A DNA stretch of 32,836 bases from contig CANFKS010000047.1 of NCBI GenBank assembly GCA_947447625.1, positions 1 through 32,836 of the forward strand, read 5' to 3'. The translations under genes and the position numbers were made by a program. The notes beneath the pieces were generated by a model. It did no database searches. It saw only the letters and a program-made list of their open reading frames with translations, and was not told the origin of the DNA. Shown here one piece after another: positions 22,352 to 32,836 of the stretch (within the stretch, counting starts at the first letter, position 1; every line of letters begins with the position of its first letter). Origin of the DNA: Rhodospirillales bacterium. GTDB lineage: Bacteria; Pseudomonadota; Alphaproteobacteria; Acetobacterales; Acetobacteraceae.

Positions 22352-22374
22352 CCATCCTGCCGCCAATCCGGCCC

Positions 22375-22476
22375 TAGAGCCTGATGATTTTTGGTGGAAT
22401 CACCAAAAATCTGAATCAGGCGATCAAACAAAGAGTTAGAGCGGGATGCCTTCGCCTATCAGAAGGCATCCCGCTC
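22375..22476. repeat. two-hairpin palindromic element, copy 6 (intact)
   Basis: Hairpin 1: outer arms GCCTGAT (22379-22385) and ATCAGGC (22415-22421), inner arms GATTTTTGGTG and CACCAAAAATC, loop GAAT, with a 3-nt bulge on the right. Linker GATCAAACAAAGAGT. Hairpin 2: perfect 16-bp stem TAGAGCGGGATGCCTT (22437-22452) and AAGGCATCCCGCTCTA (22463-22478). The element is bounded by TAGAGC and GCTCTA inverted ends. The last two bases are shared with copy 7. Confidence 0.93.
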
Positions 22477-22582
22477 TAGAGCCTGATGATTTTTGGTGGA
22501 ATCACCAAAAATCCTGAATCAGGCGATCAAACAAGGCCTTAGAGCGGGCTGCCTTCGCCTATTTCGAAGGCATCCCGCTCTA
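22477..22582. repeat. two-hairpin palindromic element, copy 7 (tandem with copy 6)
   Basis: This is a head-to-tail second copy, identical to copy 6 over hairpin 1 apart from one inserted base in the bulge. The linker GATCAAACAAGGCCT differs. Hairpin 2 is TAGAGCGGGCTGCCTTCG (22540-22557) with CGAAGGCATCCCGCTCTA (22565-22582), one mismatch. It ends 22 bp before the ATG of the next gene, just before its Shine-Dalgarno sequence. Confidence 0.93.
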
Positions 22583-22604: not shown

Positions 22605-23765
22605 ATGATCTACGAAACCCTCGGCGTCCCCACCCGCATCAACGCCGCCGGCACCGTCACCCGCCTGTCCGGTGGGCTGATGCATCCCGATGTCGCCGAA
22701 GCCATGCGCCAGGCGTCGCTGGGCTGCGTGGATATGCTCGACATGCAGGCCGCCGCCTGCCGCGCCATCCGCGCCGCGACCGGCGCCGAGGCCGGTATCG
22801 TCACCTCGGGCGCGTCCGCCGCCGTTCTGCTCGGCACGGCTGCCTGTCTTGCCGGGCTCGATCCCGGGCGCATGAACCGGCTGCCCGAGGTGGCGGATGG
22901 GCGGCGCGATTTCATCGTCGTGCGCAGCCAGCGCAACATGTACGATCGCGCCATGGTGGTGGCCGGCGCCCGCCTCGTGGAAATCGGCATCCCGGACCGC
23001 TACTCCGGACCGGGCATCCGCGACGCCGGGGCATGGGAGATCGAGGATGCGATCGGCCCCGACACGGCCGGCATCTATTATCTCGCGCAGTCCCAGTCCA
23101 AACCGGCGCTGCGCGACATCGCCGCCATCGCCCGCCGCCACGGCCTGCCCGTGCTGGTCGATGCCGCCGCCCAATTGCCGCCGGCGAGCAACCTGCGCGC
23201 CTATCTCGACGAAGGCGCTGATCTCGTCTGCTTCAGTGGCGGCAAGGCGCTCGGCGGCCCGCAATCCTCCGGCATCCTGGCCGGTCGTGCCGATCTCGTT
23301 GCCTCCGCCCTGCTGCAGATGCTCGACATGGATGTCGACACCGCCGCCTGGGCGCCGCCGCGCGAATTCGCGGCCCTGTCGCAACTGCGCGGCCTGCCGC
23401 ATCACGGCATCGGCCGCTCCTGCAAAGTCGGCAAGGAGGAGATCGCGGGGCTGATCACCGCGCTCAATCGCTTCGTTGCCGACGACCCGGCCGCCCGCCT
23501 CGCCCGTCTGCGCGGCCGGCTCGAGCGCATCCTCGCGGCTGCCGGGGGCGCTGACCTTGCGATCGATGAGACCACCATCCCCATCCTGGCCTGGCAGGTC
23601 GGCCCCGCCGCGCCCGCGATGGCGGCCCGTTTGCTCGCGTACAGCCCGTCCATCGCCTGTGGCCTGTCGCGCCAGGACGATGGCATCCTGCTGTTCAACC
23701 CCATGGCCATCACCGACGCGCAGGGCGAGGCGATCGGCCGCGCCATCGCTGCCCTGCGCGCCTGA
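22605..23765 (+). CDS. SelA/DgaE-like PLP-dependent lyase (aminotransferase class V fold)
   Basis: This 386-residue fold-type I PLP enzyme resembles SelA and the D-glucosaminate-6-phosphate ammonia-lyase DgaE. The PLP lysine is Lys214 in DLVCFSGGKALGGPQSSG, the cofactor Asp is in VLVDAAAQLPP, and INAAGTVTRLSGG at the start is typical of the DgaE/SelA-like group. It is not genuine SelA: it is shorter (SelA is about 460) and there are no sel genes nearby. The expected reaction is alpha,beta-elimination of ammonia from a hydroxy amino acid or amino sugar acid. GGAAGGAAGG precedes the ATG. First gene of the ten-gene cluster; the next starts 11 bp later. Confidence 0.8.
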   Translation: MIYETLGVPTRINAAGTVTRLSGGLMHPDVAEAMRQASLGCVDMLDMQAAACRAIRAATGAEAGIVTSGASAAVLLGTAACLAGLDPGRMNRLPEVADGRRDFIVVRSQRNMYDRAMVVAGARLVEIGIPDRYSGPGIRDAGAWEIEDAIGPDTAGIYYLAQSQSKPALRDIAAIARRHGLPVLVDAAAQLPPASNLRAYLDEGADLVCFSGGKALGGPQSSGILAGRADLVASALLQMLDMDVDTAAWAPPREFAALSQLRGLPHHGIGRSCKVGKEEIAGLITALNRFVADDPAARLARLRGRLERILAAAGGADLAIDETTIPILAWQVGPAAPAMAARLLAYSPSIACGLSRQDDGILLFNPMAITDAQGEAIGRAIAALRA

Positions 23766-23776
23766 AGGAGCCTTCC

Positions 23777-25063
23777 ATGAACCTCGACGCCATCCACGCC
23801 TCGCTCCTCGATCACCGCCAGAAAGGCATCCCCGGCGGCACCGCCCCGTTCCGCCTCGACACCATCGCCGCCAAGGGCTGGAACATCCTGCGCGAGGAGA
23901 TGAATTTCCCGGTCGCCGTGCTGAAGGACAGCGTGCTGACCCATAACAGCGCCTGGATGCGCGATTTCCTGGCCCGCTCCCGCGCCGTGATCGCGCCGCA
24001 CGGCAAAACCACGATGGCCCCCCAGCTTTTCCAGCGCCAACTCGACGACGGCGCCTGGGCCATCACGCTGGCGACCCCGCAGCAGATCCAGGTCGCGCGC
24101 GATTTCGGGGTGAGCCGGATCGTGCTTGCCAACCAACTCATCAGCCGCGGCGCCATCGACTGGGTGCTGGGCGAATTGCAGCGCGATCCGGGCTTTGACT
24201 TCTATTGCCTGGTGGATTCCCTCGAAGGCGTGGCTGCCCTGGCCGAGGCCGCCCGCGTGGCCAATATCGGGCGGCCGCTGCAGGTGTTTCTCGAAGGCGG
24301 CAGCCCCGGCGGGCGCACCGGGGTGCGCGATATCGAAACCGGCCTTGCCATCGCCCGCGCCGTCAAGGCGGCCAGTCCGTTTCTCGCCTTGCGTGGCGTT
24401 GAGGGCTTCGAGGGGCTGTTTGGCGGCACCCGCGCCGAGGTGGAGGCCCAGGTCCGCAGCTTTCTCGATCTGCTCGTCACGCTCGCGCAGCGCTGCGAAA
24501 CCGAAGACCTTTTCGCCCCCGGCGATGTCATCCTCACGGCCGGCGGCTCGGCGTTCTATGACATGGTGCTGGCCCGGTTCGCCCATGCCGGGCTCCATCG
24601 CCCCGTCATGGTGCTGATCCGCAGCGGCTGCTACCTGAGCCATGACTCGGCGCGCTATCGGCGCTCCTTTGCCGACATCGTGGAGCGCACCCCCGATGCC
24701 GCCCAGGGCGGCGGCCTGCGCTCGGCGATCGAGGTCTGGGCCCAGGTCCAGTCACGCCCCGAGCCCGGCAAGGTGCTGCTCACGATGGGCGCGCGGGATA
24801 CCCAGTCCGACACGATGCCGCTGCCCGAGACCTGGTTCCGCACCGGTATGGCGGCGCCGCAGCCGGTTCCCCAAGGCCATGTCTGCACCGGGATGAACGA
24901 CCAGCACACCCATATGACGGTGCCGCCGGACTCCCCGCTCGGCGTTGGCGATCTGGTCTCCTTCGGCGTCAGCCACCCCTGTCTGACCTTCGACAAGTGG
25001 CCGCATCTTTACATCGTCGATGACGCCTACACCGTCATCTCCGCCATCCGCACCTTCTTCTGA
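23777..25063 (+). CDS. fold-type III PLP enzyme, D-serine dehydratase/D-threonine aldolase-like amino acid deaminase
   Basis: This 428-residue alanine-racemase-fold enzyme carries the PLP Lys77 in IAPHGKTTMAPQLF. Its C-terminal D-serine-dehydratase-like domain ends FGVSHPCLTFDKW, whose His400 and Cys402 match the zinc ligands of eukaryotic-type D-serine dehydratase. Bacterial relatives include D-threonine aldolase, D-threo-3-hydroxyaspartate dehydratase and amino acid deaminases. A D-configured beta-hydroxy amino acid is the likely substrate class (inference). GGAG lies 7 bp upstream of the ATG. It sits between the PLP lyase and the M81 peptidase, 9-11 bp from each. Confidence 0.82.
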   Translation: MNLDAIHASLLDHRQKGIPGGTAPFRLDTIAAKGWNILREEMNFPVAVLKDSVLTHNSAWMRDFLARSRAVIAPHGKTTMAPQLFQRQLDDGAWAITLATPQQIQVARDFGVSRIVLANQLISRGAIDWVLGELQRDPGFDFYCLVDSLEGVAALAEAARVANIGRPLQVFLEGGSPGGRTGVRDIETGLAIARAVKAASPFLALRGVEGFEGLFGGTRAEVEAQVRSFLDLLVTLAQRCETEDLFAPGDVILTAGGSAFYDMVLARFAHAGLHRPVMVLIRSGCYLSHDSARYRRSFADIVERTPDAAQGGGLRSAIEVWAQVQSRPEPGKVLLTMGARDTQSDTMPLPETWFRTGMAAPQPVPQGHVCTGMNDQHTHMTVPPDSPLGVGDLVSFGVSHPCLTFDKWPHLYIVDDAYTVISAIRTFF

Positions 25064-25072
25064 GGTCCCCCC

Positions 25073-26542
25073 ATGCGCATTTTCGCCTGCACCCTGGCCA
25101 CCGAAACCAACACGTTCTCGCCGCTGCCGACCTCGCTCGACGCTTACAAGGAGGGCGTCTTCCTGCGGCCGGGCGAGCATCCGACCGACACGCCCCTGAT
25201 GTGCACCGCGCCCCTCTTCGTCGCCCGCCGCCGCGCCGCCGGGGAGGGGTTCACGCTGATCGAGGGGTCCTGCTTCGCGGCCTCCCCGGCCGGCACCACC
25301 AACCGCGCCGACTACGAATTCATGCGCGATGAAATCCTGGGTCAACTCACGGCTGCCTTGCCGCTCGACGGCGTGCTCCTCGGCCTGCACGGCGCCATGG
25401 TCGCCCACGGCTATGACGACGTCGAAGGCGACATCGCAGCACGGGTGCGCGCCATCGTCGGGCCGGATTGCGTGATCGGCATGGAACTCGACCCGCACTG
25501 CCACCTCACCCTCAAGCGCGTCAGCCACAGCGACATCATCATTCTCTACAAGGAATTCCCCCACACCGATGTCGTCGACCGCGCGGAGGAGTTGCTCACC
25601 CATGTGCTGGCCACCATCCGCGGCCAGATCAAGCCGGTGATGTCGATGTACGATTGCTGCCAGATCGGCTCCTATCCGACCACGCTGCCCCTGATGCGCG
25701 CCTTTGTTGATCGCATGATGGCGATGGAGGGCAAGGACGGGATCCTCTCGATCTCGATCGGTCATTGCTTCCCCTACGCCGATGTGGCCGAACTCACCGG
25801 GCGTATTCTCGTCGTCACCAACAACGACAAAGCCCAGGCCGACCGCCTGGCCACAGCAATCGGCGAAGAATTCGTCGCCATGCGCGGCCGCACGGCGCCT
25901 GACTATCTCGATGTTCCCGCCGGCGTCGGCGCGGGCATCGAGGCGAATATGTCCCCTGTCGTGATGGCCGATCCGGCCGACAATGCCGGCGGCGGCGCGC
26001 CGTCGGACAACACCACGATCCTGCGCGAACTCATCGCCCGCGACGCCCAGGATGCCGCACTCGGCCCGATCTGGGACCCTATCGCCGTTCGCCTGTGCTT
26101 CGATGCGGGCATCGGCGCCTCCTTCCCGCTGCGCTTCGGCGGCAAGATCGGCCCTGCCTCGGGCGCCCCGGTCGATGCCGTCGTCACCGTCACCGGCCTC
26201 GCGCGGGACTGCCACCAATCCTTCGGCCCCACCCAGTCCCCGCTTGGCGACTGCGCCGCCATCAAGATCGGCGGCATCGAAATCGTCCTCATCACCAACC
26301 GCACCCAGGCGCTCGGCCTCGAACTGTTCCGCAACGTCGGCATCGAGCCGACCGAGCGCAAAATGCTCGTCGTCAAATCCACCAACCATTTCATGGCCGC
26401 CTTCGGGCCGATCGCCAAAAAAGTGATCTACATCGATGCCGATGGCCCGATCCCGCGCGATTACCGCAAAATCCCCTACACCAAAATCAACCGCCCGGTC
26501 TGGCCGCTCGATGCCGACACTGCGCCCGGGCTGATTTATTGA
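25073..26542 (+). CDS. M81 family metallopeptidase (MlrC-like)
   Basis: This 489-residue M81/DUF1485 protein has the zinc-site blocks GLHGAMVAHGYDDVEGD, GMELDPHCHLT (Asp, His) and YKEFPHTDVVDR (His), and starts with FACTLATETNTFSPLPT as in MlrC. MlrC cleaves linear microcystin peptides that contain D- and beta-amino acids. Most M81 proteins are uncharacterised and often sit in amino-acid or peptide catabolic clusters. Length is typical (about 490-500). GAGG precedes the ATG. Its stop overlaps the next TTG start by 4 bp. Confidence 0.85.
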   Translation: MRIFACTLATETNTFSPLPTSLDAYKEGVFLRPGEHPTDTPLMCTAPLFVARRRAAGEGFTLIEGSCFAASPAGTTNRADYEFMRDEILGQLTAALPLDGVLLGLHGAMVAHGYDDVEGDIAARVRAIVGPDCVIGMELDPHCHLTLKRVSHSDIIILYKEFPHTDVVDRAEELLTHVLATIRGQIKPVMSMYDCCQIGSYPTTLPLMRAFVDRMMAMEGKDGILSISIGHCFPYADVAELTGRILVVTNNDKAQADRLATAIGEEFVAMRGRTAPDYLDVPAGVGAGIEANMSPVVMADPADNAGGGAPSDNTTILRELIARDAQDAALGPIWDPIAVRLCFDAGIGASFPLRFGGKIGPASGAPVDAVVTVTGLARDCHQSFGPTQSPLGDCAAIKIGGIEIVLITNRTQALGLELFRNVGIEPTERKMLVVKSTNHFMAAFGPIAKKVIYIDADGPIPRDYRKIPYTKINRPVWPLDADTAPGLIY

Positions 26543-27075
26543 CGATCCTGCTGCTCAACGGCGTCGGCAGCGCCGGCAAGACCACGCTGACAAAAGCCCT
26601 CCAGGCGATGACGCGGGAGGTCTTTCTGCACGTCCAGATGGATGCCTTCCTCGACATGCTGCCCGATCCCTGCCCCGGCGGGTTTACCTTCGAGACCATT
26701 CAGCGCGATGGCCATCCCGAAGTCGTGATCTCCAGCGGCCCCGCCGGCAAGCGCGCCATGCACGGCATGCGCCGCTCCGTCGCGGCCCTTGCCGATGCGG
26801 GCAACAACCTCATCGTCGACGACGTCAACACCGGCGAGGAATGGCGCGAATACGACACACTCCTCGCCCATCACAGTGTTCACCGCATCGGCATTCTCTG
26901 TCCGCTCGACATCCTCGAAGCCCGCGAAGCCGCGCGTGGCGACCGGCTGATCGGGCTGGCGCGCTGGCAGTTTCCGCGGGTTCATGCCGGGCGGGACTAT
27001 GATTTTACGGTCGATACCGGCGCAGCCTCGGCGGAGGCCTGCGCGCGGCTTATTCGGGGGCGGTTTGATCTCTGA
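26539..27075 (+). CDS. P-loop kinase, chloramphenicol phosphotransferase-like
   Basis: This 178-residue protein starts (TTG, overlapping the M81 stop) directly with LLNGVGSAGKTTLTKALQ, a Walker A motif. It continues with HVQMDAFLDMLP, the substrate-Asp region of the chloramphenicol 3-O-phosphotransferase (CPT) family, and LIVDDVNTG (Walker B-like). The family includes drug and small-metabolite kinases; in this catabolic context it probably phosphorylates a pathway metabolite rather than an antibiotic (inference). Last gene of the first half of the cluster; a 183-bp structured gap follows. Confidence 0.75.
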   Translation: MTILLLNGVGSAGKTTLTKALQAMTREVFLHVQMDAFLDMLPDPCPGGFTFETIQRDGHPEVVISSGPAGKRAMHGMRRSVAALADAGNNLIVDDVNTGEEWREYDTLLAHHSVHRIGILCPLDILEAREAARGDRLIGLARWQFPRVHAGRDYDFTVDTGAASAEACARLIRGRFDL

Positions 27076-27090
27076 AGGCAGCAAGCGGTC

Positions 27091-27202
27091 GCTTTTTTGG
27101 AAAAAAGCTCCGCAAAAAACTTTATCCGTTTGGCGTCGCCTCTCTCCGCCCGAAAACGCTTGTCGGGTAGAAGTTTTTTGCTTCTTTTTTTCAAAAAAGA
27201 AG
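27091..27202. other. A/T-run hairpin region in the mid-cluster gap
   Basis: Three pairings are possible. GCTTTTTT-GG-AAAAAAGC spans 27091-27108. GCAAAAAACTT (27112-27122) pairs perfectly with AAGTTTTTTGC (27171-27181). CTTCTTTTTT (27181-27190) pairs with AAAAAAGAAG (27193-27202). CTTCT can also pair with AGAAG at 27169-27173, so some structures exclude each other. The region could end the first half of the operon, be an attenuator, or be a dispersed repeat. No gene is seen here. Confidence 0.6.
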
Positions 27203-27258
27203 TGCTTGCCTTCCTGAACCCTTCACCCGCTTTCAGCCTCGCCGCAGGGACACCCCCG

Positions 27259-28026
27259 ATGATCAGCAATCCCGTTCGCACCAAACTCCTTGCCGGCGAA
27301 ACCGCGCTTGGCGTGATGGCCTTCGAATTCTTCACGCCCGGCCTCGCCCGCATTCTCAAAGCCGGCGGTGCCGAATTCGTTATTCTTGACACCGAGCATT
27401 CCGGCGCCGGCATGGACACGCTCAAATCCGCCATCGCCCACGCCCGTGGCGCCGGCCTCGCGCCTTTTGTCCGGGTTCCCGGCCTCGCCCGGCATTTGAT
27501 CTCTCCCGTGCTCGACGCCGGCGCCCTGGGCATCATGGTGCCGATGCTGGAGACGGCGGACCAGGCCCGCGAACTCGTGTCGTATTGCCGCTATCGCCCG
27601 CTTGGCACACGCGGTCTGGCCTTCGGTATGGCGCATGATGATTACCAGGGCGGCCCTTTGTTGCCGGCCATCGAGGCCGCCAACGATGCGATCCTCACGA
27701 TCCCGCTTATTGAAACGGCAGCAGGGCTGGCCAATGCCCGAGAGATTCTGGACGTTCCCGGCATCGATCTCGGCTGGGTCGGGCATTTCGATCTGACCGA
27801 TGCCCTTGGCTTCACCGGGCAGATCAGCGACCCCCGCTACGCCGCCGCCGAAGCCCAGTTGCTCGCCGCCGCGAAGGCTGCCGGCAAACCGTTCGGCTGG
27901 CTTGCCGGCGATGGCGCCCAGGCCAAGGCCGCCCTTGAACGCGGCTTCCGCTGCCTCTGCATCAACACCGACAGCGGCCATCTCCGCGCCTCGCTCGACC
28001 GCGAATTCGCCGTCGCGCGCGCCTGA
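27259..28026 (+). CDS. HpcH/HpaI-type aldolase (citrate lyase-like)
   Basis: This 255-residue class II pyruvate aldolase has the layout of HpcH/HpaI and 2-dehydro-3-deoxyglucarate aldolase. It shows LGVMAFEFFTPGLARIL, AEFVILDTEHSG (with catalytic/metal Glu), PFVRVPG, LGIMVPMLETADQARELV, ETAAGLANAREIL (metal Glu) and LGWVGHFDLTDALG. Family members cleave 4-hydroxy-2-keto acids to pyruvate and an aldehyde. The ATG at 27259 is preferred because homology starts there. The next gene begins 2 bp after the stop. It opens the second half of the cluster. Confidence 0.88.
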   Translation: MISNPVRTKLLAGETALGVMAFEFFTPGLARILKAGGAEFVILDTEHSGAGMDTLKSAIAHARGAGLAPFVRVPGLARHLISPVLDAGALGIMVPMLETADQARELVSYCRYRPLGTRGLAFGMAHDDYQGGPLLPAIEAANDAILTIPLIETAAGLANAREILDVPGIDLGWVGHFDLTDALGFTGQISDPRYAAAEAQLLAAAKAAGKPFGWLAGDGAQAKAALERGFRCLCINTDSGHLRASLDREFAVARA

Positions 28027-28028
28027 CC

Positions 28029-29039
28029 ATGCAGCCCCCCGCCGCCATCGTCGAAGGCCTTGCCCGCATGGGCCTTGCCCGGGGCGATATCCCGGGCGAG
28101 GCGCTGACCGGCGAGGCGCTGACCGGCGGGGTTTCGTCCGATATTTGGCGCATCGACCTGCAAACGGGCCCGATCGTGGTCAAACGCGCGCTCGCCAAAC
28201 TCCGTGTGGCGGCGGATTGGCAGGCGCCCGTCAGCCGCAATCTCTACGAGGCCCGCTGGATGCGCCGCGCTGCTGCGGCGGTGCCGGGCTGTGTGCCCGA
28301 CCTGCTCGGCCAGGACGATGCCAGCGGGGCGCTGGCCATGCAGTATCTCCCGCCCGAGCGTTACCGCCTTTGGAAAACCGCGCTGCGCGACGGGGAGGCG
28401 AATGCGGGGTTTGCTGCCTCGGTCGCGGGGGGCCTGGCCCGGATCCATGCGCGCACCGCTGCCGATCCCGCCGTGGCGGCCGATTTCCCGACCGATGCTA
28501 TTTTCTATGATATCCGCCTCGAACCCTACCTCGCAGCCACCGCTGCCGCCCATCCCGACCGTGCCGATGCCCTGCGCGCGCTGATCGCCGCCACCCAGGC
28601 CAACAAATGCGCGCTGGTGCATGGCGATATCAGCCCCAAGAACATCCTTGTCGGCCCCGACGGCCCGGTTTTCCTGGATGCCGAATGTGCCTGGTGGGGG
28701 GATCCGGCGTTCGACCTGGCCTTTTGCCTCAACCATCTTCTCCTGAAATGCCTCTGGACCCCGGCCGCGACTGCGGGATTCCTTGCCTGCTTCGCTGCCA
28801 TGGTGTCCGCCTATCGGGCCGGCATCACGTGGGAGCCGCCCGATGCAACCGAGGCAAGGGCCGCCCGGTTGCTGCCGGGGTTGCTTCTGGCGCGGGTCGA
28901 CGGCAAGTCGCCAGCCGAATACATCACCACCGATGTGCAGCGCGGCGTTGTTCGTCGTGTGGCGCGCGATCTGTTGGCGGCGCCGGTTGAACGGCTGTCC
29001 GCCATCGCCGAAGCCTGGAGAGAGGACCTGCCCCGATGA
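28029..29039 (+). CDS. APH-fold phosphotransferase (small-molecule kinase)
   Basis: This 336-residue aminoglycoside-phosphotransferase-fold kinase shows ATP-site IVVKRALAKL (Lys), and the Brenner-type motif LVHGDISPKNILV with catalytic Asp, then VFLDAECAWWGDPAFDLAF with the metal Asp. The C-terminal helical part is like 5-methylthioribose kinase and homoserine-kinase-type relatives. Substrate unknown: no antibiotic-resistance context is present, so phosphorylation of a hydroxylated pathway metabolite is likelier (inference). The stop overlaps the enolase-like start by 4 bp (ATGA). Confidence 0.8.
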   Translation: MQPPAAIVEGLARMGLARGDIPGEALTGEALTGGVSSDIWRIDLQTGPIVVKRALAKLRVAADWQAPVSRNLYEARWMRRAAAAVPGCVPDLLGQDDASGALAMQYLPPERYRLWKTALRDGEANAGFAASVAGGLARIHARTAADPAVAADFPTDAIFYDIRLEPYLAATAAAHPDRADALRALIAATQANKCALVHGDISPKNILVGPDGPVFLDAECAWWGDPAFDLAFCLNHLLLKCLWTPAATAGFLACFAAMVSAYRAGITWEPPDATEARAARLLPGLLLARVDGKSPAEYITTDVQRGVVRRVARDLLAAPVERLSAIAEAWREDLPR

Positions 29040-30325
29040 ACGAAACCGAGATCGTCTATGTCCAGGGCCGTCGCGTCTGGGACAGCCGCGGCCGCCCGAC
29101 TGTGGAAGCCGAAGTCATCCTCGAAGGCGGCGGCGTGGGCCGCGCCATCGCCCCCGCCGGCGCTTCGACGGGCTCGGGCGAGGCGCTCGACCTGCGCGAT
29201 GGCGGACCAGCCTTCGGCGGCTATGACGTCACCCGCGCCGTCGAGCACGTCAATGAGGCGATTGGCGATGTTGTCGTCGGCATGGATGGCGCCGACCAGG
29301 AAGCGGTCGATCGCGCCATGATCAAGCTTGACGGCACGCCCAACAAATCCCGCCTGGGCGCGAATGCCATCCTTGCCGTCTCGATGGCCACCGCCCATGC
29401 CGCCGCCGCCGCCGCCGGCAAGCCGCTCTACCGCCATCTCGGCGGCGAGGAGGCCGATCTGCTGCCGCTGCCGCAGATCCAGATTTTCGGCGGCGGCGCC
29501 CATGCCGGGCGGCGTGTCGATATTCAGGACTTCCTGATCGTCTGTCCGGCCGCGGAGAGTTTTGCCCAGGCGCTGGACTGGACGGCCGAGGTCTATCGTG
29601 CCGCCGGGGAACTGATGAAGGAGGCCGGCACGCTGCACGGCGTGGCCGACGAAGGCGGCTGGTGGCCGGCGTTCAGCACCAATGAGCAGGCGCTGGAAAT
29701 GCTGGTCCGCGCCATCGAGCGCGCTGGCTTCCGGCCGGGCGAGCAGGTTGCGATCGCGCTCGACATCGCGGCCTCGGAGTTCGGCAGGAACGGTGTCTAT
29801 ACGCTGGGTCTCGAAGGCAAAAGGCTCGACAGCGCGGGCATGATCGACATGCTGACCGGCTGGATCGGCCGCTACCCCATCGTTTCCATCGAGGACCCGC
29901 TCGCCGAGGACGATGCGGCCGGGTTCGCGGCCTTCACCGCCGCCGTGGGGCATCGCATCCAGGTCGTGGGCGACGATTTCCTGGTCACCGAAGCGGCCCG
30001 CATCCGTGCTGCCGCGTCCCACGGGGCGGCCAATACCGTGCTGATCAAGCCCAACCAGCGCGGCACCATGACCGAGACGCTGGAGGCCTGGACGGCCGCC
30101 AAGGCGTGCGGCTACGCCGGCATCGTCTCAGCCCGCTCCGGCGAGACCGAGGATGTCACCATCGTGCATCTCGCGATCGGCTGGGGCGTCGGCCAGCTTA
30201 AGGTCGGCAGTTTTGCGCGCTCCGAGCGGATGGCCAAATGGAACGAGGCCATTCGCATCGAGGAAGCCATGGGCCATCGCGCCCGCTTCGCCGGGGCCAC
30301 CTGCTTCGGGCGCTCGAAATCGTGA
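29036..30325 (+). CDS. divergent enolase paralogue
   Basis: This 429-residue enolase-fold protein is full length. Metal ligands D243, E286 and D313, acid/base K338 and E206, substrate-binding K389, R367 and S368, and H156 in FGGGAHAG are kept. Two strictly conserved enolase positions differ: QEF is QDF (D165), and SHRSGE is SARSGE (A366). LIKFNQIG also reads LIKPNQRG. A housekeeping enolase would sit elsewhere (typically near pyrG), so this copy likely acts on another phosphorylated hydroxy acid in the cluster. Start ATG overlaps the APH stop; stop overlaps the dehydrogenase start by 4 bp. Confidence 0.87.
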   Translation: MNETEIVYVQGRRVWDSRGRPTVEAEVILEGGGVGRAIAPAGASTGSGEALDLRDGGPAFGGYDVTRAVEHVNEAIGDVVVGMDGADQEAVDRAMIKLDGTPNKSRLGANAILAVSMATAHAAAAAAGKPLYRHLGGEEADLLPLPQIQIFGGGAHAGRRVDIQDFLIVCPAAESFAQALDWTAEVYRAAGELMKEAGTLHGVADEGGWWPAFSTNEQALEMLVRAIERAGFRPGEQVAIALDIAASEFGRNGVYTLGLEGKRLDSAGMIDMLTGWIGRYPIVSIEDPLAEDDAAGFAAFTAAVGHRIQVVGDDFLVTEAARIRAAASHGAANTVLIKPNQRGTMTETLEAWTAAKACGYAGIVSARSGETEDVTIVHLAIGWGVGQLKVGSFARSERMAKWNEAIRIEEAMGHRARFAGATCFGRSKS

Positions 30326-31257
30326 AGGTCGTCCTGCACTACGACGCCGGGCCTGGTCTGGCTGCCCGCCTGGGCACATTTCCGGGCCTCGATATCACGA
30401 TCTGTCCGGAGCATGACGACAGCGCGCTGTGGGCCGCGCTGCGGGATGCGGAGGTGCTGTGGCACGCGCTCAAGCCGTGCACCGCTTCGGTGATCGCCGC
30501 GGCGCCGAAGCTGCGCCTGATCCAGAAGATCGGCATCGGCGTCAACACCATCGACCTCGACGCTGCCGCTGCGCGCGGCATCGCGGTGTGCAACCTGCCC
30601 GGCTCGAACGCGCCGGCGGTGGCCGAAATGGCGCTCATGCTGATGCTCGCGACGCTGCGCCGCCTGCCGCAATTCGACGCGGGCCTGCGGCAGGGAGTTT
30701 TTCATCCCACCCCTGGCGTGCAGGATCATCTGGAGGAACTCGGCGGCAAGACCGTCGGCCTGCTCGGCTATGGCGCCATCCCCCGGCATCTGACGCCGAT
30801 CCTGCAGGCGATGGGCTGCCGCGTGATCTATCACAGCCGCACGCCGCGGGCGGATGCGCGGGCGGAGTATGTCGATTTCGACGATTTGATCCGCCGCTCC
30901 GACATCCTGTCCCTGCATATCCCGCTGACGCCCGAGACCGAGGGCGTGATCTGCGCCGATACGCTCGCGCGGATGAAGCCCGGCGCCGTTCTGGTGAACA
31001 CTGCCCGCGGTGGCCTTGTGGATCAGAGCGCGCTGACCGCCGCTCTTGCCAGCGGGCATATCGGCGGGGCCGGGCTCGATGTGTTTGCGGTCGAACCGCC
31101 TGACGCGGACGACCCGCTGTTCATGTGCGACAACGTCGTTGTCGCCCCCCATGTCGCATGGGTAACCCAGGGCACCTTCGATCGCAGCTTTGCGACCGCG
31201 GCCGAGAATTGCCGCCGCCTCGGGGCCGGCGAAGCGCTGCTGCATCGCGTCCGGTGA
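30322..31257 (+). CDS. D-2-hydroxyacid dehydrogenase (NAD-dependent)
   Basis: This 311-residue protein of the D-isomer-specific 2-hydroxyacid dehydrogenase family has a degenerate Rossmann motif VGLLGYGAIPRHL, the HIPLTPETEGVI block, catalytic Arg in NTARGGLVDQSAL, Glu in LDVFAVEPP and His in VVAPHVAWVT. Substrate is not readable; relatives oxidise glycerate, phosphoglycerate or lactate-type acids. GTG start overlaps the enolase-like stop and the stop overlaps the DUF1537 start, each by 4 bp, so it is firmly in the operon. Confidence 0.88.
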   Translation: MKVVLHYDAGPGLAARLGTFPGLDITICPEHDDSALWAALRDAEVLWHALKPCTASVIAAAPKLRLIQKIGIGVNTIDLDAAAARGIAVCNLPGSNAPAVAEMALMLMLATLRRLPQFDAGLRQGVFHPTPGVQDHLEELGGKTVGLLGYGAIPRHLTPILQAMGCRVIYHSRTPRADARAEYVDFDDLIRRSDILSLHIPLTPETEGVICADTLARMKPGAVLVNTARGGLVDQSALTAALASGHIGGAGLDVFAVEPPDADDPLFMCDNVVVAPHVAWVTQGTFDRSFATAAENCRRLGAGEALLHRVR

Positions 31258-32291
31258 GCGCATTCCGCCTCCTCGCGGATGACCTCACCGGCGCGCTCGA
31301 CAGCGCCGCCCGCTTTGTGCCGCGCTTTGGCCCCATCGAAGTGTCCTGGCGGCGGCCGAGCGCGGCGCGGGCCGCCGCCTATGACAGCGAAACCCGCGAA
31401 GCCGCCGATCCCGCGCCCGGCATGCTGCGCTGGGCGCCTTATCTGCGCGATGCCGATCTTGCCTTCAAGAAGCTCGACTCGATGCTGCGTGGGCATGTCG
31501 CTGCCGAAATCGCCGCCTGTCTGCGCGCCGGCGGCTTTGCCCATGCCGTGATCGCCCCGGCTTTTCCCTATCATGGCCGCATCACCAGCGGGGGGCGGCA
31601 TTATGCCCATGGCCGGGACGTCGGCATCGACCTGGGGCTCGACTTCGCCCGCCTGGGGATTCCGCTCAGCCTGTGCCGACCGGGCGATCCGCCTTCGCCT
31701 GGGGTCAGCCTGTGGGATGCGGTTGATGAAGGGGATCTCGACCGCGTCGTTGCGGCCGGGAGGGGCTTGCCCGGCCCGGTCCTGTGGTGTGGCAGCGGGG
31801 GGCTTGCTGCTGCCCTTGCCGGGCCTGGTGCGCCGCCATGCCCGGCGCTGCCGGGCCCGATGCTGGCGCTGCTGGGCTCGGACCATCCCGCCACTGCCGC
31901 GCAGTTCGCTGCCGCTCCCGCCACCGCCACCCTGCTCGGCCCCGATGGCGCGCGTGCCATCGGCCGGAGTCTGGCCGGGCGCGACGCGGTGCTGCGCGCT
32001 CATGTGCCGGACAATACGCCGCGCGATGTCGCGGCCGGGCTGATCGGGGATACGTTCATCGCGCTGGCCTTCGCGCTGCCCGCCCCGGGCACGCTTGTGG
32101 TCACCGGGGGCGAGACGCTGCGCCGGCTGTGCGATGCGCTGCGGGCCAGCCACCTCACCGTGCTCGGCGAAGTGATGCCGGGCGTGCCGGTGTCGAGTCT
32201 CGAGGGCGGTGCGTGGGATGGTGTCACCGTGGTTTCCAAATCAGGCGGCTTCGGCCGGCCGGACTTCCTTGCGCGGCTGTTCGCAGCGTAA
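31254..32291 (+). CDS. DUF1537 four-carbon acid sugar kinase family protein
   Basis: This 345-residue acid-sugar kinase shows the N-terminal LLADDLTGALDSA, DSETR, FKKLDSMLRGHV and APAFPYHGRIT-GGRHYAHG blocks. The C-terminal ATP-binding blocks are VTGGETLRRL and VSKSGGFG. Known members phosphorylate D-threonate, D-erythronate or similar acids and work with PdxA2-type dehydrogenases, exactly the next gene here. It is shorter than typical (about 400-430), with the middle region reduced. GTG start overlaps the dehydrogenase stop by 4 bp; the PdxA gene starts 28 bp later. Confidence 0.87.
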   Translation: MSAFRLLADDLTGALDSAARFVPRFGPIEVSWRRPSAARAAAYDSETREAADPAPGMLRWAPYLRDADLAFKKLDSMLRGHVAAEIAACLRAGGFAHAVIAPAFPYHGRITSGGRHYAHGRDVGIDLGLDFARLGIPLSLCRPGDPPSPGVSLWDAVDEGDLDRVVAAGRGLPGPVLWCGSGGLAAALAGPGAPPCPALPGPMLALLGSDHPATAAQFAAAPATATLLGPDGARAIGRSLAGRDAVLRAHVPDNTPRDVAAGLIGDTFIALAFALPAPGTLVVTGGETLRRLCDALRASHLTVLGEVMPGVPVSSLEGGAWDGVTVVSKSGGFGRPDFLARLFAA

Positions 32292-32319
32292 ACTCGCCTT
32301 TCATCCGGGGGACCCTGCC

Positions 32320-32836
32320 ATGACCGCGCACGTGCCGCATCTTGCCATCACCATGGGCGACCCCGCCGGCATCGGCGCCGAAATCATCGTCAAGGCGGCT
32401 GCCCGTCTTGCGCCGCGCATTGCGGCCGGCGCGCTGCGCCTGCTCGTGATCGGCCATGCCACGGCGCTCGGGGCGGCCGAGGCCATGCTGGGGGCGGTGC
32501 CGATGCCGCGGTCCGACGGGAGCGCAACGCTGCCGCCGCTCGCCATTCTGGCCGCGGGCGCGGAGCGCGAAGCCATCACGACGGGCCAGATGAGTGCAGA
32601 GGGCGGGCGGTTTGCCTATCTTGCCGTGGAGCGTGCGGTGCGTATGGCGCAGGCCGGGCGGATCGATGCGATCGTGACGGCGCCGCTCAACAAGGAGGCG
32701 CTCAATCTGGCCGGGCATCATTTTGCCGGGCATACCGACATGCTGGCGGCCCTGACCGGCACCAAATCCTCGGTGATGCTGCTGGCCCATGGCGCGATGC
32801 GGGTGAGCCATGTGACCACCCATGTCGCGCTCGACA
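32320..32836 (+). CDS. pdxA: PdxA-family 4-phosphohydroxy-L-threonine dehydrogenase (partial, cut by window end)
   Basis: The open frame continues to the right edge (172 codons). It begins HLAITMGDPAGIGAEIIVKAA and contains VTAPLNKEALNLAGHHFAGHTDML, which holds the PdxA metal His. Full-length members have about 330 residues. Housekeeping PdxA serves pyridoxal phosphate synthesis; next to a DUF1537 kinase the PdxA2 role is likelier, oxidative decarboxylation of a phosphorylated acid sugar to dihydroxyacetone phosphate. GGGGGA lies 8 bp before the ATG. Confidence 0.9.
   Translation, partial: MTAHVPHLAITMGDPAGIGAEIIVKAAARLAPRIAAGALRLLVIGHATALGAAEAMLGAVPMPRSDGSATLPPLAILAAGAEREAITTGQMSAEGGRFAYLAVERAVRMAQAGRIDAIVTAPLNKEALNLAGHHFAGHTDMLAALTGTKSSVMLLAHGAMRVSHVTTHVALD

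Follow-up and report, generated by a model that had tools for sequence, protein, structure and literature searches.

What does an enolase do inside a cluster of catabolic genes, directly behind the gene for a small-molecule kinase? Enolase is usually regarded as an enzyme of one reaction. The question is raised by a contig of 32,836 nucleotides from a Rhodospirillales bacterium of the Acetobacteraceae (GenBank assembly GCA_947447625.1, contig CANFKS010000047.1), referred to here in its full length as the window, which ends in a run of ten open reading frames (ORFs). The new object that we describe is not this ten-gene set but a pair within it, consisting of a kinase of the APH fold and an enolase paralogue that we call ENO*. 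The pair is a portable, nearly obligate module that is found with very different neighbors, and ENO* probably acts on a substrate other than 2-phosphoglycerate. The two genes, which form the core of what we term block 1, are:

28029..29039, + strand: APH-fold small-molecule kinase, block 1 core, 336 aa (Pfam APH, 5.2e-18)
29036..30325, + strand: enolase paralogue ENO*, block 1 core, 429 aa, in which D165 and A366 replace a conserved E and H

A kinase and an enolase that travel together

The association holds from whichever partner the loci are approached. Among loci fetched through the enolase (the best 80 of 580 relatives), 77 contain the kinase; in the three exceptions, no more than 125 bases of sequence precede ENO*. 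Dereplication at 88% identity of 139 loci from named, plasmid and unnamed collections, 42 of which had been fetched via the kinase or its genome, left 86 ENO* loci. The kinase gene immediately precedes ENO* in 75 of them and immediately follows it in 3; another 4 have it at some other place in the locus, and in the last 4 it is not in the locus. Seen from the kinase, ENO* lies within about 1.5 kb in 63 of 68 loci (those with a locus, best first, of 95 listed places, including the window and counting L114/L145 twice). In the remaining five, ENO* is several kb away (L177, L178), on another contig (G660, G858) or absent (G595). The motif SARSGE is present in 60 of the 63 ENO* sequences from kinase loci; the other three sequences end before it.

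Genome surveys, which score just the best few candidates from a loose first pass, gave the same picture. The kinase was found in 9 of 398 genomes of the phylum and ENO*, at 485 bits or more, in exactly those 9 (Fisher 1.6e-18, kinship ignored), with eight more matches at 430-434 bits classed as housekeeping-type by score alone; the ENO* threshold of 1e-128 used in this survey would miss more distant ENO* of the actinobacterial type. Across 30 kinase-bearing genomes, ENO* was detected in 27 and a housekeeping-type enolase, again by score, in all 30. The three that have the kinase with a housekeeping-type enolase and no ENO* are G595, G879 and G897. Taxonomically, the pair spans Proteobacteria, Actinomycetota, Bacteroidota and Halobacteria, with ENO* adjoining the kinase also in Rhodococcus, Embleya, Persicobacter and Halobacteria. 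We found no description of it in the open-licence PubMed Central literature, among the matches listed. The view of a first-pass annotation of this locus, that of a catabolic operon whose chemistry lacks a known description, is supported.

A few records stand apart. In L105, a plasmid of Rhizobium sp. RCAM05350, ENO* is split over two reading frames, which may reflect disruption of the gene or a mistake in sequencing. The contigs of L063 and L032 are titled Akkermansia muciniphila and Solirubrobacterales, and their ENO* groups with proteobacterial copies; the titles or bins look wrong. An Enterobacter plasmid (L094, NZ_CP097174.1) encodes a distant enolase-like ORF (33-34% identity) close to an APH-like kinase, with Asp at the place of Glu168, Gly at that of His373 and Lys for the general-acid Glu. 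Its cluster also holds U32 peptidase, aminotransferase and MFS genes, and may be a biosynthetic cousin of the pair.

An active site changed on one side

How far does ENO* depart from enolase (EC 4.2.1.11)? The copy in the window has both the Enolase_N and Enolase_C domains and scores 503.6 bits with TIGR01060 (cut-off 300). A second enolase, 51% identical to it, is encoded on another contig of the same genome. In an alignment of 44 ENO* sequences with 19 housekeeping enolases, the latter taken from kinase-bearing genomes, all 44 ENO* have D in column 165 and A in column 366, where all 19 housekeeping enolases have E and H, respectively. Both substitutions are common to all 80 enolase-fetched loci. 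By motif, we take these columns to correspond to yeast enolase residues Glu168 and His373, which line the active site on its C3 side. In contrast, S44, H156, E206, D243, E286, D313, K338, R367, S368 and K389 are identical in all 63 enolases; these ten residues are the catalytic lysines, the general acid, the metal ligands and the phosphate-binding residues. ENO* thus shares with enolase both Pfam domains, the metal ligands, the catalytic lysines and the phosphate-binding Ser, Arg and His, and differs from it in the invariant Glu-to-Asp and His-to-Ala changes on the C3 side and in being a second enolase, paired with a kinase, beside the housekeeping copy. In an unrooted tree, a branch supported at 100/99 separates the housekeeping enolases from the other sequences. 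Judged by residues and tree, ENO* is a distinct kind of enolase.

The partner kinase is conserved in H198-G199-D200, N205 and D217, which are invariant across 15 aligned copies. Its nearest solved relative by sequence, and closest PDB profile match, is methylthioribose kinase (1.5e-16), but the match is weak and the window's kinase reaches 50 bits with TIGR01767 where 275 are required. Its domain is of the APH fold and not the PF05161 (MOFRL) or PF02595 of established glycerate 2-kinases. A MOFRL gene is present elsewhere in the window's genome, on contig C139, and a MOFRL glycerate kinase is found in 23 of 29 kinase-bearing genomes, most of which should therefore not need the pair for D-glycerate.

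Two conserved blocks make up the cluster

The ten ORFs all lie on the + strand, from position 22605 to the contig end at 32836. Pfam and NCBIfam profiles bear out the families that the first-pass annotation had assigned to them, and the ten-gene, same-strand cluster is confirmed. Its other members, and a repeat immediately upstream, are:

22366..22562, strand not applicable: two near-identical palindromic repeat units, spacing 102-103 bp, immediately upstream of the cluster
22605..23765, + strand: SelA/DgaE-like pyridoxal phosphate (PLP) enzyme, block 2, 386 aa (Pfam SelA, 1.1e-8)
23777..25063, + strand: D-serine deaminase-like PLP enzyme, block 2, 428 aa (Pfam D-ser_dehydrat, 7.7e-18)
25073..26542, + strand: M81/MlrC-like metallopeptidase-family protein, block 2, 489 aa (Pfam, 5.9e-71 and 1.3e-53)
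26539..27075, + strand: CPT-like P-loop kinase, TTG start, 178 aa (Pfam CPT, 5.3e-41)
27259..28026, + strand: HpcH/HpaI-type aldolase, 255 aa (Pfam, 4.5e-30)
30322..31257, + strand: D-2-hydroxyacid dehydrogenase, block 1, GTG start, 311 aa (Pfam, 1.7e-57)
31254..32291, + strand: DUF1537-type acid-sugar kinase, GTG start, 345 aa (Pfam SBD_N, 2.6e-21; NBD_C, 1.5e-16)
32320..32836, + strand: PdxA-type dehydrogenase, truncated by the contig end (Pfam PdxA, 3.3e-28)

With corrected starts, the junctions measure, in gene order, 11, 9, -4, 183, 2, -4, -4, -4 and 28 bp. The tight spacing originally described holds for eight of the nine (-4 to +28 bp) and breaks down between the CPT and HpaI genes, where the gap is 183 bp in the window versus about 15 bp in the relative L009. 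PdxA is incomplete in the window, with residues 1-172 remaining, because the contig stops at 32836, inside the gene. In L009, whose ENO* is 93% identical to that of the window, a full-length PdxA is followed by an SBP_bac_1 solute-binding protein and two ABC permeases. A transporter therefore probably lies just beyond the contig end, to the right of the window, where the first-pass annotation had proposed looking. No regulator was recognized among the ten ORFs by Pfam and NCBIfam families.

Several of the proteins score below the cut-offs of models for specific functions. The SelA-like protein (PDB matches 8t7j and 7lc0) reaches 131-134 bits with DgaE models whose cut-offs are 600 and 385, the M81 protein 397 bits with the MlrC model (999 required), the CPT-like kinase 94 bits with the chloramphenicol phosphotransferase model (250 required), and the HpaI-type aldolase 105-112 bits with four specific models, each below its cut-off. 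The D-serine deaminase-like protein matches PDB 3gwq, 'D-serine deaminase', at 1e-102. Aminoglycoside or chloramphenicol resistance was set aside as a function because the specific models are far below cut-off and the setting is catabolic, and the beta-hydroxyaspartate cycle because the BhcC equivalog scores 39.5 bits against 690 required.

The cluster is a combination of two conserved blocks, and the single pathway of ten genes read into it at first is not supported beyond the genus. Block 1, by far the wider, consists of the APH-fold kinase and ENO*, which are frequently accompanied by a dehydrogenase for 2-hydroxyacids or by an enzyme resembling ketopantoate reductase. Block 2 comprises the SelA-like, D-serine-deaminase-like and M81 genes and is tied to block 1 within the family; it is colinear with block 1 in the window and L009 and divergent from it in L011, L012, L023 and L175, with the HpaI-type aldolase accompanying it in L011 and L023. 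In one further genome, represented by L009 and L174 (a single contig), the full ten genes occur in the same order; L175 has nine of them and lacks the CPT gene. Both genomes are of the window's genus. The first-pass refuting condition, that the ten genes never co-occur elsewhere, is thus borne out by half: outside the window, the complete set was seen in that one genome of the genus, while the parts recur widely. DUF1537 and/or PdxA genes join block 1 in L009, L010, L013, L032, L039 and L175. (Four contigs were sampled twice: L009/L174, L010/L176, L015/L208 and L025/L211.) Of 200 family genomes surveyed, 46 have the kinase, 31 the SelA-like gene and 20 both (Fisher 5.5e-8). Where the SelA-like match is at least 67% identical (14 genomes), it lies on the same contig as the kinase at about 5 kb or less in 11, and on a separate contig in 3. 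Most loci carry block 1 without block 2.

Parts of the cluster resemble known systems. As in D-threonate/erythronate catabolism by a DUF1537 kinase and PdxA2, DUF1537 and PdxA-type proteins are adjacent in the window; here, however, they are embedded with blocks 1 and 2, PdxA is cut, and the DUF1537 protein, with both domains present, stays below the specific cut-offs (95.2 of 450 bits for D-threonate kinase, 41.6 of 350 for 3-oxo-tetronate kinase). The whole PdxA of L009 scores 257.7 bits with PDB 4jqp and 257.0 with the D-threonate 4-phosphate dehydrogenase 6e85. The two PLP enzymes belong to the families of DgaE (D-glucosaminate-6-phosphate ammonia-lyase) and D-serine deaminase, but the SelA-like one scores 131.6 bits with the DgaE model, which requires 600. 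LRA1-6 are the names used for the non-phosphorylative L-rhamnose/L-fucose type of pathway. Some relatives of the module share FAH and SDR partners with LRA-type pathways, yet the known route has no counterpart of the kinase and ENO*, and neither an FAH hydrolase nor an LRA-type SDR/4-dehydrogenase was found by Pfam among the ten ORFs. Two papers treat related systems, namely a DUF1537 erythronate gene cluster (PMC10580937) and non-phosphorylative pentose pathways (PMC6336799).

Neighbors of the pair in other organisms

Within 6 kb of the pair, 84 dereplicated loci contain at least 27 2-hydroxyacid dehydrogenases, at least 12 ketopantoate-reductase-like enzymes, at least 7 FAH proteins of the LRA6 type and at least 8 others, and at least 8 GMC oxidoreductases. 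These counts are lower bounds from our own label set, with over-extended ORFs dropped; the kinase itself is labelled in 58 of the 84, and L015 lacks an ENO label. For the kinase, the figures given above for the 80 enolase-fetched and the 86 dereplicated ENO* loci are more reliable. Eight of 20 hand-picked neighboring ORFs had no Pfam match, and the simple gene walker may have picked wrong frames.

In Paracoccus (L090) and Roseibium (L091), genes for the kinase, ENO*, an FAH protein and an SDR are consecutive and adjoined by sugar ABC genes; the best solved relative of the Paracoccus FAH protein is L-2,4-diketo-3-deoxyrhamnonate hydrolase (2.4e-81). A GarD/UxaA-type dehydratase gene lies downstream of the kinase and ENO* in L071 (7231-8763), as does a gene of the same sequence cluster in L076. 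Burkholderiales have the ketopantoate-reductase-like enzyme in place of the dehydrogenase. A Rhizobium locus contains ENO*, a homoprotocatechuate-dioxygenase-like protein, an alcohol dehydrogenase, the kinase, the dehydrogenase and phosphoenolpyruvate (PEP) carboxylase, and the last of these adjoins the 2-hydroxyacid dehydrogenase and kinase in L089 (a Rhizobium indicum plasmid), L177 and L178.

The arrangement in L090 and L091 at first favored the idea that the pair replaces a missing aldonate dehydratase in FAH-type clusters, an idea later weakened by dehydratases nearby. A check of the MR/MLE and IlvD/EDD families in nine records found MR/MLE matches in 9/9, some of the PF13378 matches being ENO* itself, and IlvD/EDD in 6/9. 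The loci differ in this respect: between ENO* and the nearest of these genes lie about 14 kb in Roseibium, and some 20 kb or more on each of the three remaining plasmids.

A possible reaction sequence and its alternatives

What reaction, then, might the pair carry out? The gene content, the pairing and the residue changes are observed, and from them we infer each of the reactions that follow. Because the carboxylate, metal and phosphate sites are conserved, ENO* would be expected to bind a 2-phospho carboxylate, with the kinase as the obvious source of the phosphate. Because every copy examined is altered on the C3 side and conserved at those other sites, the substrate probably differs from 2-phosphoglycerate in bearing something more on C3; a four- to six-carbon sugar acid is likeliest. 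The reading that we favor, at slightly less than even odds, is that the kinase makes a 2-phospho-2-hydroxyacid from which ENO* eliminates the C3 group to give a phosphoenol acid, likely of a sugar acid. The dehydrogenase, or the ketopantoate-reductase-like enzyme in Burkholderiales, would reduce a 2-oxoacid to a D-2-hydroxyacid; the kinase would place phosphate on its 2-hydroxyl; ENO* would remove the alpha proton and expel the C3 group; and the phosphoenol acid would yield a 2-oxo-3-deoxy acid. In the window, the HpaI-type aldolase could cleave this product, the SelA-like and D-serine-deaminase-like enzymes could supply 2-oxo acids from beta-hydroxy amino acids, and the DUF1537 and PdxA proteins could process four-carbon acid sugars. 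The sugar-acid character of the neighbors, including LRA-type FAH with SDR and sugar ABC genes, the GarD/UxaA-type dehydratase, DUF1537 and PdxA, is consistent with this scheme.

Several observations weigh against this scheme. Many loci have no recognizable partner beyond block 1. In G067, an FAH-type locus, an IlvD/EDD dehydratase lies in the adjoining ABC operon; in G351, another such locus, the kinase has an MR/MLE gene at a distance of about 3 kb. At these loci the pair is thus not necessarily a substitute for a sugar-acid dehydratase. W210, present in 36/44 ENO*, may refill the space of the lost His, which leaves a larger pocket uncertain. Glu168 and His373 are presumed to act at the C3 leaving group, and no paper on the role of His373 was found in open-licence PubMed Central among the matches listed. 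The PEP carboxylase neighbor in Rhizobium fits PEP as the product, and G595, G879 and G897, which have no ENO*, also have no PF05161 or PF02595 glycerate kinase, which fits a glycerate kinase role. Both points favor the main rival, which we regard as unlikely: the dehydrogenase would convert hydroxypyruvate to D-glycerate, the kinase would phosphorylate it as a glycerate 2-kinase of a new type, and ENO* would be a pathway-owned isoenzyme converting 2-phosphoglycerate to PEP. The varied neighbors (FAH, GarD-type and HpaI-type) could all yield glycerate or hydroxypyruvate, the three genomes without ENO* are also those without a PF05161 or PF02595 kinase (Fisher 0.005 for PF05161, two of the three sharing a genus), and G220, G259 and G351 have ENO* yet lack PF05161 and PF02595. 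Against this route stand the two altered active-site positions in 44/44 ENO* and a double redundancy in most genomes, where a housekeeping-type enolase (30/30) and a MOFRL kinase (23/29) are already present.

A three-carbon variant would account for both the changed leaving-group side and the PEP carboxylase, as well as for why a MOFRL kinase and an ordinary enolase do not suffice: the substrate would be L-glycerate or a 3-substituted lactate (with an amine, a sulfonate or another group), and ENO* would release the C3 group to give PEP. We consider it quite improbable, as the annotated neighbors included no conspicuous genes for handling sulfite or amines, although no search was aimed at them, and as the 2-hydroxyacid dehydrogenase family of block 1 is presumably D-specific. 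We also give little credence to a single pathway in which all ten genes would break down a D-hydroxy amino acid or an amino sugar acid to triose phosphate or pyruvate; the tight junctions and the co-occurrence of the kinase with a nearby SelA-like gene in the family speak for it, but the full set is limited to the genus and most loci have block 1 without block 2, and this reading was set aside. It is very improbable that ENO* is no more than a second, ordinary enolase of glycolysis that happens to lie in an operon: its TIGR01060 score is above the cut-off, but its separate place in the tree, its distinct residues and its linkage to the kinase across phyla led us to set this reading aside as well.

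Implications for enolase function

If phosphorylation by the kinase and elimination by ENO* do form one step, a broader and more doubtful proposal would follow, namely a widespread and so far undescribed ATP-driven dehydration in which a 2-hydroxyl kinase and a repurposed enolase convert 2,3-dihydroxy acids to 2-oxo-3-deoxy acids via phosphoenol sugar acids. In bacteria and halophilic archaea, such a route would stand in for dehydratases of the iron-sulfur or mandelate-racemase type. In most of the annotated records covered here, the proteins are named 'phosphopyruvate hydratase' and either 'aminoglycoside phosphotransferase family protein' or 'phosphotransferase'; if our reading is true, this would be a systematic annotation error, including names that hint at drug resistance. 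It would also provide a case of enzyme evolution, and would reveal a hidden catabolic step in a large enolase subfamily with two fixed changes and a near-constant kinase partner.

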